Below are positions 2,580 to 28,770 of a DNA stretch of 33,084 nt, piece after piece. Position 1 is the first letter of the stretch, and every line of letters begins with the position of its first letter. Source of the DNA: Acidobacteriota bacterium (GTDB lineage Bacteria; Acidobacteriota; Terriglobia; Acidiferrales; UBA7541); the NCBI GenBank assembly GCA_003223255.1, contig QHYJ01000102.1, forward strand, positions 33,235-66,318, written 5' to 3'. Position numbers and translations under genes: made by a program. The notes under the pieces were generated by a model. That model was not told the origin of the DNA. It saw only the letters and a list, made by a program, of their open reading frames with translations, and searched no databases.

Positions 2580-2648
2580 GGCAGTAGCCTACGCCGGACA
2601 GTCGCAAGGCTCAACCTTTCTCGCTGTGCCTTTCCCTTGTACGCTGGC

Positions 2649-3641
2649 CTACAGGCGCTCGGCGGCGAGGACGCGGGGGATTCCGGCGAGATCGTTGGTT
2701 ACGCTGACCCTGGTCCAAGTCGATGCGTCGAGCAGGGGCTGGATGGCCGGCAAGCCGTTATGCCCCAGTTCCAGGACAAGAATGCCGTGCGGACGAAGAC
2801 AGTTTGCCGATTGCGCGATCAGATCCCCGTAGAGTTCGTAGCCTTCTTCGCCGCCGTAGAGCGCGATCTCCGGTTCGTGCTCGCGGACTTCGCGCATCAA
2901 AGTTGCGGCTTCCCTGCGCCCTACGTAGGGCGGATTGCTGACGATAAGATCCAAATAACCCGGCTGGTCACCTGCGACGCGTGAATGGTTTGACGAATTC
3001 CCTGCTACTGCGGCTTGTAGTTGTAGGGGCGCACCATGCTGCGCCCCGCCGGGCGAAGCTCTATCCAAAAGGTTTGTTTCGACGAAGCGGATGCGTATTG
3101 CGACGTTGTGCCGAGAAGCGTTGCGGCCGGCCACCTCAAGCGCGGCAGCGGAAAGATCTGTTGCCACAAATGCCGCCCCGGGAAGTTCTTTGGCCAGCGC
3201 AATCGCGATGCAGCCTGAACCAGTGCCGATATCAGCAATCAGCAAGCCAGCGCCGTCGGTTTTTTGCGAGCGTCCGGCGCGGAGTTCGCGTAACGCCAGG
3301 CGGTCCAGCGCAACTTCGATGACCTGCTCGGTCTCCGGCCGCGGGATCAGCACATCCGGCGTCACTTCGAATTCCAGTCCCCAGAATTCCTGCTTTCCGG
3401 TGAGGTGCTGTGTCGGTTCGCCCGCCGCGCGGCGGCGAATCAACGCGGAATAGCGCTGTGCATTCGCGACAGGAATTTCTTCTTCGGGATGCGAGTAAAT
3501 CCACGTGCGATCGCGGCCCAGCACGTGAAGCAGCAGCAACTCCGCCGCGAGCGTGTAGGAAGGCACACTCGCGTCGCGCAATTGCGCGATGCCCGACTTC
3601 AGCTGCGCGCGGATAGATTTTTCTTCCGAAAGGCGATTCAT
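2649..3641 (-). CDS. prmC: Release factor glutamine methyltransferase PrmC (with internal insertion)
   Basis: SAM-dependent methyltransferase that modifies the Gln of the GGQ motif in release factors. The 330 aa comprise an N-terminal helical domain, the VLIPRPETE signature (about 98-106), the SAM motif DIGTGSG (about 137-143) and the catalytic NPPY (236-239). Between ETNLLD and YLDLIVSNPPY there is an extra stretch of about 35 residues (about 194-229) rich in Gly, Ala, Gln and Ser. Part of it, GGAQHGAPLQ, is encoded by a REP-like hairpin at 3022-3047. The family normally has a short loop here, so the insertion is probably tolerated between the SAM-binding strand and the NPPY loop. The gene follows prfA on the same strand, the classic prfA-prmC pairing. 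The start has no clear Shine-Dalgarno sequence. Confidence 0.93.
   Translation of the reverse strand: MNRLSEEKSIRAQLKSGIAQLRDASVPSYTLAAELLLLHVLGRDRTWIYSHPEEEIPVANAQRYSALIRRRAAGEPTQHLTGKQEFWGLEFEVTPDVLIPRPETEQVIEVALDRLALRELRAGRSQKTDGAGLLIADIGTGSGCIAIALAKELPGAAFVATDLSAAALEVAGRNASRHNVAIRIRFVETNLLDRASPGGAQHGAPLQLQAAVAGNSSNHSRVAGDQPGYLDLIVSNPPYVGRREAATLMREVREHEPEIALYGGEEGYELYGDLIAQSANCLRPHGILVLELGHNGLPAIQPLLDASTWTRVSVTNDLAGIPRVLAAERL
3022..3047 (-). repeat. REP-like palindrome (type 1) inside prmC
   Basis: TGTAG is followed by a perfect hairpin with an 8-bp stem (GGGGCGCA / TGCGCCCC) and a 6-nt loop. The GTAG head next to a palindrome is the known layout of REP sequences mobilised by RAYT (TnpA_REP) transposases. 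Close relatives are at 9056-9081 and 28323-28347. This copy lies inside the prmC frame and is translated. Confidence 0.75.
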
Positions 3642-3773
3642 CCAAGAAGACTTTCTTTCTGACTGCCGCCGGCTTCATGGTAGCCAAGCGCGACGGATCC
3701 ACAAGGGCCAGGTTCCGAGCCGGGCCGAGGCCACGGGAACGCCTGCTTAGCGGGGACAATGCCTTGCCGAGGA

Positions 3774-7817: not shown

Positions 7818-8960
7818 ATGTCGGCACACATGGATCAGGCAAACATTTTAATCATTGGCGGTGGGGTGATTGGCTGCGCCATCGCCCGCGCCGCTTCCGC
7901 GCGCTGGCAGGACGTTTTTCTGGTCGAGCAATTTCCCAGGCTGGGCATGGCCACCAGCACGCGCAACAGCGGCGTCAACCACTCTGGCATTTATTATCCG
8001 AAGAATTCGCTGAAGGCGCGTCTTTGCGTGGAAGGCAATCGCCTTACGTACGAATTCTGCGAAAAACACAACGTGCCTTTCCGCCACTGCGGCAAACTGG
8101 TCGTTGCAGCTGATAGCCACGAAGAACCCGAGCTTACGGCGCTGAAGAAGCGCGGCGAAGACAACGGCGTCGAAGGGTTGCGACTCGTTGACGCGGCGGA
8201 AATCCGCACACGTGAGCCGCACATCAAAGGCACCGCCGCGCTGCATGTGCCGTCAACCGGTATCGTCTCCGCTGAAGAGCTCGTTCATGCCTACGCGCGT
8301 GTGGCCACCAATCAGGGCGCGAACCTCGTCACACACGCGAAAGTCGTCTCCCTCGAACCGTCCGGCAACACGATTCGCGTCGGCTTGAAAATTGGCGGCG
8401 ACGCAGATTCACAGGAAGAAAAAATCGAGGCACGCTGCGTCATCAATGCAGCCGGGCTTTACGCCGACGAAGTTGCGGCGATGCTGGGCAATCATTCGTG
8501 GAAGATTTACCCCGTGCGCGGCGAATACTGCGAAGTGCGCGGCCCACGCTCTTCGCTCATCAACAATCTCGTTTATCCGCTACCGCACCCGGACGGGTTG
8601 AGCTTGGGCGTGCATTTCACCAAAACGCTGTGGGGAACGTTTCTGCTTGGGCCTACAGCGACCTACGTCGAGGGAAAAGACAATTACGAGAAGAACCGCC
8701 TGCCGATCGCCGCGTTTGCGCAAAGCGCGAAGACGCTATTGCCTGAAATCGAAGAGCGCGACTTACAGCTCGGGTACACCGGCCTCCGCCCGAAGCTCGC
8801 GGGTCCAACTCACAAAGGCGGCATCGTCGATTTCGTGATTGCGCGCGACGCCAAAGTGCCGCAGGCGATCCATCTCGTGGGCATGGAGTCCCCCGGGCTC
8901 ACCGCTGCGCCCGCTGTCGGCAATTACGTTGCACAGTTGGTGAAACAGGTACTCGCGTAG
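7818..8960 (+). CDS. lhgO: FAD-dependent L-2-hydroxyglutarate oxidase/dehydrogenase-like protein
   Basis: FAD-dependent oxidoreductase of the DAO family, 380 aa. It has an N-terminal dinucleotide-binding fold (ILIIGGGVIGCAIARA) and the stretch NSGVNHSGIYYPKNSLKA that is typical of L-2-hydroxyglutarate oxidases. The C-terminus has GLRPKLAGP and GMESPGLTAAPAVG, matching the FAD-closing region. LhgO-type enzymes oxidise L-2-hydroxyglutarate to 2-oxoglutarate and pass electrons to oxygen or the quinone pool. The start at 7818 has no Shine-Dalgarno sequence because the upstream stretch is the A/T-rich repeat; ATG 7830 is an alternative. The symbol rests on family resemblance only. Confidence 0.82.
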   Translation: MSAHMDQANILIIGGGVIGCAIARAASARWQDVFLVEQFPRLGMATSTRNSGVNHSGIYYPKNSLKARLCVEGNRLTYEFCEKHNVPFRHCGKLVVAADSHEEPELTALKKRGEDNGVEGLRLVDAAEIRTREPHIKGTAALHVPSTGIVSAEELVHAYARVATNQGANLVTHAKVVSLEPSGNTIRVGLKIGGDADSQEEKIEARCVINAAGLYADEVAAMLGNHSWKIYPVRGEYCEVRGPRSSLINNLVYPLPHPDGLSLGVHFTKTLWGTFLLGPTATYVEGKDNYEKNRLPIAAFAQSAKTLLPEIEERDLQLGYTGLRPKLAGPTHKGGIVDFVIARDAKVPQAIHLVGMESPGLTAAPAVGNYVAQLVKQVLA

Positions 8961-9000: not shown

Positions 9001-9055
9001 CTTGATTGTTGGGCTCCTGATTGGCGACCGGTTACCCGCCAGAATCTAGGGCACT

Positions 9056-9081
9056 TGTAGGGGCGCGGCATGCTGCGCCCC
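9056..9081. repeat. REP-like palindrome (type 1), intergenic
   Basis: TGTAG is followed by GGGGCGC, an 8-nt centre containing the palindrome GCATGC, and GCGCCCC. It is nearly identical to the copies inside prmC (3022-3047) and purL (28323-28347). It lies between the convergent ends of lhgO and tyrS. Confidence 0.75.
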
Positions 9082-9113: not shown

Positions 9114-10346
9114 CTACTCAACGACGATGCGAACGAATTTCTTTTTCCCCGCGCGAAGAAGGAAACTTGCCGGCTTGCTGAGGTCAATGTCTTTCCGCGG
9201 GTCGTCGACGATCGCGCCATCAATCTCGACGGCTTTCTGCTTGATCAATCGTTCGGCCTCTGTTTTTGAAGGCGCGAGTTTCAGCTCAACCAGTAGCGCG
9301 GTTAGCTTCTTCGCGGGTCCTTTCGGCAATTTCACGGTTGGCGCTTCTTCCGGCGCTTGCCGTTCACGGAACACACGCTGGAAATGTTCCGCTGCCTTGC
9401 GCGCTGCTTCTTGGCCATGAAAATCGCGGATGACTTCGTCCGCAAGACGCATCTTTGCATCCATGGGATGCAGCTTGCCGCTCGATACCTCCTTTTGCAT
9501 TGAAGCAATCTCTTTTGGCGTGCGGTCCGTCAGCAATTCGTAGTAAGACCACATGAGTTCGTCAGGAATCGACATGAGCTTGCCGAACATTTCCGACGGC
9601 GGCTCGGTAATGCCGACGTAGTTGCCGAGGGATTTAGACATTTTGCGCCGGCCGTCGAGGCCTACAAGAATAGGCATTGTGAGCGCCACTTGCCCGGCTA
9701 GACCGTATTCCCGCTGAATGTCACGGTGTATCAGCAAGTTGAATTTTTGTTCGGAGGCGCCCAGTTCAACATCGGACTTGAGTTCCACAGCGTCGCGTGC
9801 GGTCAGCAAGGGGTAAAGCAGTTCGTGAACGGAAATGGGCTGGTTGTTGGCCAGGCGAGAACGAAAATCCTCGCGCTCCAGCATCCGTGCTAATCGATAA
9901 TGAGAACAAAGCCGAACGACATCCTCGGCGTTCATCTTGCTGAGCCACTCGCTGTTGTAGCGGACCTCGGTTTGGTTGCGGTCGAGAATTTTGAAAACCT
10001 GCTCAAGGTAAGTTTTCGCATTGGCCTCGACTTGCTCGCGCGAAAGCGGCGGGCGCGTTTCCGATACGCCCGTGGGGTCGCCAATCATCGCCGAGAAATC
10101 GCCAATCAGGAAAACGGCGGTGTGGCCCAGGTTCTGAAAATGCTTCAGTTTGCGCAGCACCACGGTGTGCCCGAGATGAAGATCAGGAGCCGTGGGATCC
10201 ACGCCGAGATAAACACGCAGCGGCTTCCCCGTTTTGCGCGACGCTTCGAGCTTTGCAACCAACTCAGGTTCCGGAATGATTTCCACGACGCCTTTTTTGA
10301 TGTAGGCGAGCTGCTCTTCGATGGGTTTGAATTTGTGTTCAGTCAT
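9114..10346 (-). CDS. tyrS: Tyrosyl-tRNA synthetase
   Basis: Class I aminoacyl-tRNA synthetase that charges tRNA-Tyr, 410 aa. The Rossmann-fold signature is HLGH (57-60, the HIGH motif) and the second signature is KMSKS in [17 protein letters not shown]-terminal S4 RNA-binding domain covers about the last 65 residues ([24 protein letters not shown]). The overall pattern fits the TyrZ-like subgroup. The frame runs 10 codons further upstream, but the Met at 10346 (MTEHKF) gives the better N-terminus. purN lies upstream on the same strand, with a REP-like element between them. Confidence 0.95.
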
Positions 10347-10402
10347 CTCAGCTTTTTGTTTTACACCTTGCGTCATGGTTCCCGCTTGGTTTAAGGCCAG
10401 AC

Positions 10403-26331: not shown

Positions 26332-28770
26332 TCATCGTGATGTTACTGCCCGCTCGAGCGAGTTGGCCCAGGCGTCACGAAGCGACGACACGGGGAACTC
26401 GATTACCGCGCGCCCCTTAAGTTCGATGCAGAAAGCATCCCCGCGAGTGACCTTACCGATTTCACGCGCCGCCACGCCGTATTGTCGCGCAATTGCGAGA
26501 ACGGCGGCAAGGCTTTCCCTCGAAACGCTAACGATGGCGCGGGCGCCGCGCTCGCCGAAGAGAGAGAATTCGAGGGGGGAGTTGTCATCGAGGTGAACGG
26601 CTGCGCTGAGGGAAGAAAAAGCAGGTCCCTCGCCCCGCGAGGAACGCGGGGATTCGGGATGACAGTCGTTCGGTGGGTTGCCCAAGGAGGCGAAGCAGGA
26701 TTCGGCGAGGGCGACGGCCAGGCCGCCGTCGGAAATGTCATGGGCGGACTCGACGACGCTCTCAGCGGCGAGGGCGACGAGGCAGTCGATGAGGCGCTTT
26801 TCGTCGGCGAGGTCGATCGAGGGCGGTTCGCCGGCAACAATGGCGGCGATGGTCTTGCTGTATTCCGAGGAGGAGAATTCCCGGGCGGAATCAGAAGTGG
26901 CGCGTGGCGCGTGGCGCGTGGCGAGAGAGGCAAAAGAAGAGCCATCGAGCAAGACGATAAGGTCGCCGGAGTTGCGGAAGGCGATTTTCAGGACGCGGGA
27001 GACATCGTCAAGGATGCCGAGCATGCCGATCACGGGCGTCGGGTAGATGGATTTGCCGAGGGTTTCGTTGTAGAAGCTGACGTTGCCGCCGGTGATGGGC
27101 GTGCCAAGGGCGGTGCAGGCGTCGGCGATGCCGTCGATCGCTTCGCTGAACTGCCACATCACTTCAGGCTTCTCCGGGCTGCCGAAGTTGAGGCAGTTCG
27201 TGGCGGCAATGGGGCGCGCGCCGCTTGCGGCTACGTTGCGCGCGGCTTCCGCGACGGCGTGCATCGCGCCGACGCGTGGATTGAGCTGGCACCAGCGGCC
27301 ATTGCCGTCGGTCGAGAGCGCGAGAGCGCGCTTGACCTCATTGGTTTTGGGATCCTTGATGCGCACGACCGCAGCATCGCTGGCGCCTGGGCCGGCGAGC
27401 GTGTTGGTGCGCACGGAAGTGTCGTACTGCTCGGTGATCCAGCGCTTGGAGGCAATCGCGGGAGAAGCGAGCAGCTTCAGAAAATTCTGTGTGAGGTTCG
27501 TGCCTTCAGGCGCGAACCGGAACCAATCCCTTTCGGACTCGACGCGCGGCGCAGGTGCGGCGATGGGACGGTTGTAAACCGGCCCTTCTTCCGCGAGCGG
27601 ATGCGCGGGAATTTCCGCAGCCACGCTGCCGTGATTCTTGATGCGCGCCAGGCCGCCTTCCGTGACGCGGCCGACCACCACGGCGTCAAGGCCCCATTTT
27701 TTGAAGACGCCGAGCACTTCCTGTTCGCGGCCCTTTTCCGCGACCAGCAGCATGCGCTCCTGCGATTCGCTGAGCATGATTTCGTAGGGGGTCATGCCGG
27801 TTTCGCGCTGTGGAACTTTCTCGAGATCGATTTCGATGCCCGTGCCGCCGCGCGAGGCCATTTCCACGGTCGAGCAGGTAAGCCCCGCCGCGCCCATGTC
27901 TTGAATCGCTACTACCGCGCCGGTCTGCATGGCTTCAAGGCAGGCTTCAAGCAGCAGCTTTTCCATGAACGGGTCGCCCACTTGCACGTTGGGACGCTTT
28001 TGCCGGGATTGTTCGGTGAACTGGGCGGAGGCCAGCAGCGACGCGCCGTGTATGCCGTCGCGGCCGGTTTTCGCGCCGACGTAAATGACCGGATTGCCCG
28101 CACCTTTCGCTTTGGCGAAAAACAAGTCTTCTTTGCGCGCGATACCTAAAGCCAGCGCGTTGACCAGAGGATTTTGCGAGTAGCACGGCTCGAAAGCGAC
28201 ATCGCCGCCGACGGTCGGCACACCGAAACAATTGCCGTAGCCGCCAATGCCGCGAATGACCCCGTCGAGAATCCGGCGGTTGGCAGCGAGTGTGGCCGAG
28301 TCAAGTGGTTGGTTGCCAAGCCGGGGCGCAGCATGCTGGGCCCCTACCGAAGAGATCGGGCCGAAGCGCAGGGAATCGAGGACGGCGATGGGGCGCGCGC
28401 CCATGGTGAAAATGTCGCGCAAGATGCCGCCGACGCCGGTGGTCGCGCCCTGAAACGGCTCGACATAGCTGGGATGATTGTGCGATTCGATTTTGAACGC
28501 GGCGACGAGGCCGTCGCCGATGTCCACAACGCCCGCGTTTTCGCCCGGGCCTTGCACCACCTGCTTGCCGCGCGTGGGCAAACGCTTCAGGTGCACTTTG
28601 CTGGATTTGTAGGAGCAGTGCTCGCTCCACATCACGGAGAAGATGCCAAGTTCGGTGATGTTTGGTTCGCGGCCAAGGATTTGCTTGACGCGCCGGTATT
28701 CTTCTGGTGTTAGGCCATGCTCGGCCGCGATTTCAGGTGTGACGCGGATTTCCGTGGGTGCCGTCGCCAT
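26332..28770 (-). CDS. purL: Phosphoribosylformylglycinamidine synthase subunit PurL (with three repeat-derived insertions)
   Basis: ATP-dependent amidation of FGAR to FGAM, working with PurQ (glutaminase) and PurS. 812 aa, longer than the small-type PurL (about 740). Signatures: [57 protein letters not shown] and [15 protein letters not shown]. Three extra stretches are visible: about 140-160 ([14 protein letters not shown]), encoded by a REP-like hairpin; about 616-625 (TRHAPRAT), from a 7-bp tandem repeat; and about 702-718 ([16 protein letters not shown]), from another repeat. All keep the frame and lie outside the core motifs. The ATG is six bases after the purQ stop, so translation is likely coupled. 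No purS gene is visible nearby. Confidence 0.96.
26619..26664 (-). repeat. Repeat element with GC hairpin inside purL
   Basis: On the minus strand it reads TGTCATCCCGAATCC, then a 7-bp-stem hairpin (CCCCGCG-ttcct-CGCGGGG), then GAGGGACCTGCTT. Its relative is at 19220-19285. It encodes the PurL segment [16 protein letters not shown]. Confidence 0.65.
26897..26923. repeat. 7-bp tandem repeat inside purL
   Basis: GTGGCGC is present three times in full plus six of seven bases of a fourth copy. The unit is not divisible by three, so copy-number change would shift the purL frame. It encodes TRHAPRAT on the minus strand. Confidence 0.8.
28323..28347 (-). repeat. REP-like palindrome (type 1) inside purL
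   Basis: On the minus strand GTAGGGGCCCAGCATGCTGC followed by GCCCC, close to the copies in prmC and at 9056-9081 (one arm has a mismatch). It encodes GAQHAAP, near-identical to GAQHGAP in the prmC insertion. Confidence 0.72.

Follow-up and report, generated by a model that had tools for sequence, protein, structure and literature searches.

A GTAG-tagged palindromic repeat translated within a loop of PrmC in an acidobacterial genus

The palindrome in prmC and its family

The DNA analysed here, a stretch of 33,084 nt from an Acidobacteriota bacterium, is referred to as the window throughout; its genes and repeats are collected in Table 1. Its prmC gene is unambiguously identified (NCBIfam TIGR03534, 261.5 bits vs a cut-off of 199.1), and the product has the features of the PrmC/HemK family, i.e. 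the N-terminal domain PF17827, the GTGSG and NPPY motifs and a score at the equivalog level. The best named matches come from Acidobacteria bacterium YP1.bin9 (52%) and a Candidatus Acidiferrales bacterium (50%).

Table 1. Genes and repeat elements of the window discussed in the text
Feature	Position	Strand	Remarks
prmC, release factor glutamine methyltransferase, 330 aa	2649..3641	-	TIGR03534; fold match 2b3t_A
Whole extra PrmC loop, residues 193-229	2955..3065	-	between strands 184-188 and 230-235
GTAG-tagged REP palindrome	3021..3047	+	GTAG head on the low-coordinate side; antisense relative to prmC
REP-encoded peptide GGAQHGAPLQ, PrmC residues 198-207	3021..3050	-	in-frame translation
Extragenic REP copy	9055..9081	+	between convergent genes 7818-8960 (plus) and 9114-10376 (minus)
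purL	26332..28770	-	NF002290, 1000.5 bits; host of second translated REP and two other repeat-like inserts
Heptamer array in PurL (GTGGCGC on plus strand, 3.9 copies), translated	26897..26923	-	
Second translated REP in the window, PurL residues 142-152	28315..28347	-	in-frame translation

An earlier note on this DNA had described a REP-like palindrome at 3022-3047 in the prmC frame, and we could confirm it there: TGTAGGGGCGCACCATGCTGCGCCCC lies inside prmC, with TGTAGGGGC at 3022 paired with the complementary GCCCC ending at 3047 and with GTAG at one end of the palindrome. It thus has the architecture of the GTAG-tagged REP superfamily, whose palindromes measure 20-40 bp and bear GTAG at one end. 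The 27-mer starting at 3021 has one exact match and one match with two mismatches in the window (0 expected from 100 dinucleotide shuffles), and the gapped pattern GTAGGGGCG-N4-12-CGCCCC has two window matches vs 0 expected; chance is excluded for the element, because two REP-like copies in the window stand against none in the 100 shuffles. The genome-wide search for copies that the note had proposed returned 10 places for GTAGGGGC-N12-GCCCC and 0 for the reversed control, and this strict N12 pattern is present in 33 of the 36 genomes of the genus. The element is dispersed and multicopy, as is characteristic of the superfamily, at a copy number that is low for a REP family. In 104 one-sided copies, taken from 15 congeneric genomes, the consensus reads TTTGTAGGGGC...GCCCCAGCTTGG: conservation covers a short T-run, GTAG, the palindrome GGGGC/GCCCC and a tail near AGCTTGG, and goes no further. 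In the flanks of these copies conservation around GTAG extends from about -5 to +35; the element has a length of about 25-36 bp, and a composite mobile element of larger size with the REP as its cargo was rejected. The subtypes GCAGCATGCTGC, ACGATATATCGT and ACGGCATGCCGT carry matched changes in both arms. The element at 3022-3047 is a GTAG-tagged REP of a low-copy family of an acidobacterial genus.

The extra stretch before NPPY in which the REP-encoded peptide lies is close in its limits to the residues 194-229 given in the note and, at 111 nt, is longer than the 26-bp element, as the note had pointed out. Since conservation stops at about +35, the REP does not include the remainder of the prmC loop. 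The strand that follows the loop leads into NPPY, and the distance from DxGTGSG to NPPY is 99 residues in the PrmC of the window vs 68 in the shortest congeners (loop +31). A structure predicted with AlphaFold from the window protein and 54 homologues has a mean pLDDT of 91.2, with the blocks covering residues 191-230 at 54-64 vs 95-98 in the neighbouring blocks; other slightly lower values are found for the first ten residues (78) and for residues 121-130 (81). The model matches E. coli PrmC in its complex with RF1 (2b3t_A) with a TM score of 0.93 by target length, and the fold around the extra loop is predicted to be intact. The note's suggestion that a housekeeping enzyme took up the REP in frame and was not broken by it is thus supported.

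The prmC loop across the genus

In 31 of the 36 genomes of the genus prmC covers the loop, and all counts of loops refer to these 31. Allowing at most 3 wrong among 16 fixed positions (p<=0.003, 300 shuffles each), we found the same REP in the same frame in 12 of the 31 loops; degraded REPs in G015, G017 and G026 (p 0.13 to 0.44) are excluded from this count. The note's expectation of an insertion in this lineage only was therefore wrong, all the more so as REPs also occur in other core genes (see below). A heptamer array of the CACGAGT type is present in 14 loops (nominal p<=0.013, uncorrected, 36 loops tested), and six loops are 36 nt or less and carry no repeat. Loop lengths range from 30 to 183 nt, with the reading frame kept in 31 of 31. 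Near relatives differ at the site: G029 is empty vs G013 and G028 filled, and G014 is empty vs G023 filled. Because the rest of the loop is in congeners often a heptamer array, the loop looks built up in steps. The suggestion of a larger insertion that had carried in the palindrome holds in part, then: there is more in the loop than the REP, and in congeners this remainder is often a different repeat. In the rest of the window's own prmC loop a heptamer array is not supported (p=0.59).

As a dispersed repeat the heptamer occurs in 19 of 61 genomes, which belong to a single taxonomic order, and the outgroups G036, G038 and G041 have heptamer arrays at the same place in prmC. Short tandem heptanucleotide repeats are present in cyanobacteria as dispersed 7-bp arrays. 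Dispersed 7-bp arrays are thus common to both; the unit differs, and here the arrays are translated. Other material is also seen in the prmC loop. The 159-nt loops of G019 (L018) and G008 (L023) are alike and contain no detectable REP or heptamer. The loop of G035 (L034) has a different palindromic repeat (GGCACGGCTTCAGCCGTGCC and a second hairpin) between heptamer-like stretches; CTAGCCAC stands on both sides of this repeat and may be a target duplication.

The earlier note had named homologues across the phylum with the same residues encoded by unrelated codons as the observation that would speak against a captured repeat. The comparison does not refute the capture: the VGAQHAAP residues are absent from the prmC loops read from named relatives outside the genus, and within the genus it is the repeat that encodes them.

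The prmC loop evolves near-neutrally. In three close pairs with few changes, dN/dS is 0.80 to 1.01 in the loop vs 0.12 to 0.29 in the body of the gene, and the pooled ratio of nonsynonymous to synonymous changes is 27:11 vs 85:157 (p=5e-5, on the small counts of these three pairs). Near-neutral dN/dS together with the kept frame suggests that the insert is translated and tolerated without its sequence being conserved.

Translated repeats in other core genes

Of 30 purL genes, 13 carry in-frame REP matches; these matches, 15 in all, are distributed over three loops (1, 7 and 7), and reversed-sequence controls gave 0. The 15 were counted from 20 rows, leaving out one duplicate, three out-of-frame matches at the 5' end and one out-of-frame match in a conserved stretch. 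The PurL of the window also has repeat-like translated inserts at 26878-26940 (the heptamer array) and at 26608-26679. G025 (L191) has a similar insert at the latter loop.

The cleanest case of a REP insert is TrpS, which in the genome of the window has a 27-residue insert including GAQHAAPLQ between VRLQN and PAYECFYF. A clean empty site (27-column gap) is seen in 22 of 30 loci (29 relatives and the window's genome). Among the relatives, G011 has a REP-like peptide in the same loop; G018, G025 and G001 carry other material and G019 and G032 short extensions; G026 could not be scored.

A census of translated copies covered 119 REP places in 15 genomes by a codon-based test on both flanks (of 120 places, L095 of the only partly listed G005 was excluded), and host proteins were named by family searches or, for unscanned copies, from the flanking protein sequence. 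The test was passed by 15 of the 119 places, an approximate number, as the test misses true cases (SMC L306, RAYT-like L226 and L281) and passes the doubtful L260; the other 104 are treated as one class, with intergenic and antisense copies taken together. REPs of the GTAG-tagged superfamily lie mainly outside genes; the prmC copy is itself intragenic. The passing copies lie in DnaE (3), PrmC (3), PurL (2), MtaB (2), Der (2), TrpS (1), one unnamed protein and one doubtful case. Below the codon threshold yet decorated are SMC, a RAYT-like gene and one more unnamed protein. Heptamer arrays are translated in loops of prmC, purL, trpS and dnaE, sometimes beside REPs.

The REP is nearly always read in the frame that yields VGAQHAAPL; the exception is DnaE, where it is read in the other open frame (8 gene-sites vs 1, p=0.039). 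In the PHP domain of DnaE (L092, L280, L283) it is a REP of subtype B that is read in this other frame (RRGTI[HY]RAP), and in L092 and L283 the REP peptide is followed by a heptamer-encoded peptide. A protein at L292:1-1878, without a Pfam or NCBIfam match, has the REP-like peptides VGAQRAAPRL and VGAQQAAPLQ, the first of them between two CPxCG-type motifs.

Origin and meaning of the translated repeats

We consider it likely that PrmC acquired a low-copy GTAG-type REP, by insertion or exchange, in a surface loop that permits it, and that the REP is translated with the rest of the enzyme. Tyrosine transposases of the RAYT type are the probable mobilisers of REP copies. At most coding positions, or in most frames, an insertion would be purged; surviving copies would sit in flexible loops, mostly in the frame whose product, VGAQHAAPL, is small and free of Cys. 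A long, unconstrained loop may then become a repeated target for further REP subtypes and heptamer arrays. A RAYT gene flanked by REPs is a further mark of the superfamily. The RAYT model NF047646 scores over its cut-off in 19 of the 36 genomes of the genus and nowhere in the genome of the window (one match, 30.8 bits vs 80). No REP is present in the fetched flanks of the four Y1_Tnp loci of that genome (L077-L080), which gives no support to a resident REPtron. In G013, a RAYT-like/Y1 transposase-like ORF at L226:1158-1724 (a weak match, 20.5 bits) has a REP in frame (VGARYIVPL), which falls between the two matched halves of the ORF, i.e. inside a gene like its presumed mobiliser.

Mapped on a tree built from trimmed PrmC and PurL sequences, the presence of the REP in prmC is clustered (at least 6 Fitch steps vs 9.8 in shuffles, 0.55% of which are as low), and part of the pattern is therefore vertical inheritance with loss. 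Such clustering would also follow if the ancestor of the genus had gained the REP in prmC only once, with inheritance, erosion and loss thereafter; the order REP, heptamer, FDL, which is common to several clades, and the same prmC copy in the close pair G013/G028 fit this history as well. We nevertheless regard a single gain as rather unlikely. Three palindrome subtypes are found at the prmC site, and point mutation would need many paired changes to produce them. In the window's genome (G000) the intact GTAG head is on the downstream side in the reading sense; in its near relative G018 it is on the upstream side, i.e. in the opposite orientation. In TrpS, moreover, G000 and G011 have the REP, G018 and G025 have other material and most other sites are empty. 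The subtype in prmC also agrees with that of the other copies of the same genome (p=0.002 for 12 genomes, a value confounded by ancestry; 0.033 to 0.067 with one genome per sister pair, G005 and G010 left out). Against this agreement stands G005, whose prmC copy is of subtype A and most of whose listed copies are of subtype B. Both processes occur: inheritance is evident from the clustered distribution on the tree and from the copies that close pairs have in common, and the opposite orientation in G000 and G018, the three subtypes at one site and the subtype agreement point to re-insertion or exchange. Between them we moderately prefer repeated entry to a single gain.

Selection on the inserted peptide or on an mRNA hairpin, e.g. 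for tuning the translation of PrmC or its contact with the release factor, is improbable. The insert is kept beside the catalytic NPPY of a core gene in 12 of 31 congeners and one frame dominates, as would be expected of a function; the frame bias, however, is equally explained by avoidance of Cys-rich or stop-bearing frames, the pooled substitutions of the loop have no synonymous excess, and six of 31 congeners do with short, repeat-free loops. An RNA structure or known riboregulator at the prmC REP was rejected: a 101-nt RNA around the REP is no more stable than shuffled sequences (z=-0.23), and there is no Rfam match at gathering scores in window positions 2600-3700. The same lack of an Rfam match speaks against removal of the stretch before or during translation (intron, intein or ribosomal bypass), which would keep the REP out of the enzyme. 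Only the general fact that homologues are without the stretch favours such removal; excision would not require the frame to be kept in all 31 loops over their whole range of lengths, and 111 nt is too short for known introns or inteins, so that we give this reading very little weight. An artefact of assembly or binning of a fragmented genome (428 contigs) is hardly credible, given the same repeat, frame and gene site in 12 of 31 separate genomes, and in purL and trpS too.

Beyond insertion into PrmC itself, we tentatively propose, with slightly less than even confidence, that a few loops (one in PrmC, three in PurL and one each in TrpS, Der, MtaB, DnaE and SMC) may be standing landing sites, in which unrelated repeat families (REP subtypes, heptamers and other palindromes) enter, replace each other and decay, and through which the core proteome would steadily gain new loop sequence from the repeats present in the genome at the time.

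Intragenic REPs are already known. The passages of Di Nocera et al. 2013 (PMC3733652) drawn on here describe GTAG palindromes of 20-40 bp wholly inside ORFs whose proteins are known, tRNA synthetases and repair genes among them, propose that a flexible linker or loop may take up such an insertion neutrally, and give one case, recB of two Xanthomonas species, with a REP at about the same site. According to these passages GTAG repeats are mainly gammaproteobacterial, with most intragenic ones in Opitutus; those among them on Acidobacteria concern TIRYT transposases and TIRs. GTAG palindromes inside ORFs are what our cases share with the 'REP-decorated' proteins as described there. They differ from them in the acidobacterial genus, in the seven named core genes, in the reuse of the same loops by several REP subtypes and heptamer arrays, and in that empty sites and near-neutral evolution were measured. 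Rickettsia palindromic elements (RPEs; Ogata et al. 2000), in the part of PMC10969869 drawn on here, are likewise palindromic repeats in frame in unrelated housekeeping genes. They are about 150 bp long and reported from Rickettsia, whereas the present element has about 25-36 bp, a GTAG tag and a heptamer companion, and belongs to Acidobacteriota by its nearest named prmC relatives; it is therefore not an RPE. In the open-access literature we found no description of translated REPs in Acidobacteria and no published case of genus-wide refilling of the same loop by different repeat classes. What is new here is the genus-wide scale and the reuse of the same loops.

For annotation, our data imply a warning: VGAQHAAPL or HESRITSHQS in conserved enzymes are repeats and not domains. 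If our reading is true, the genus would be a natural insertion-scanning experiment, in which dozens of species mark loops that tolerate 10-50 extra residues. Empty and filled sites in close relatives would allow one to ask if REPs are still mobile, and if a translated repeat ever turns into useful protein.
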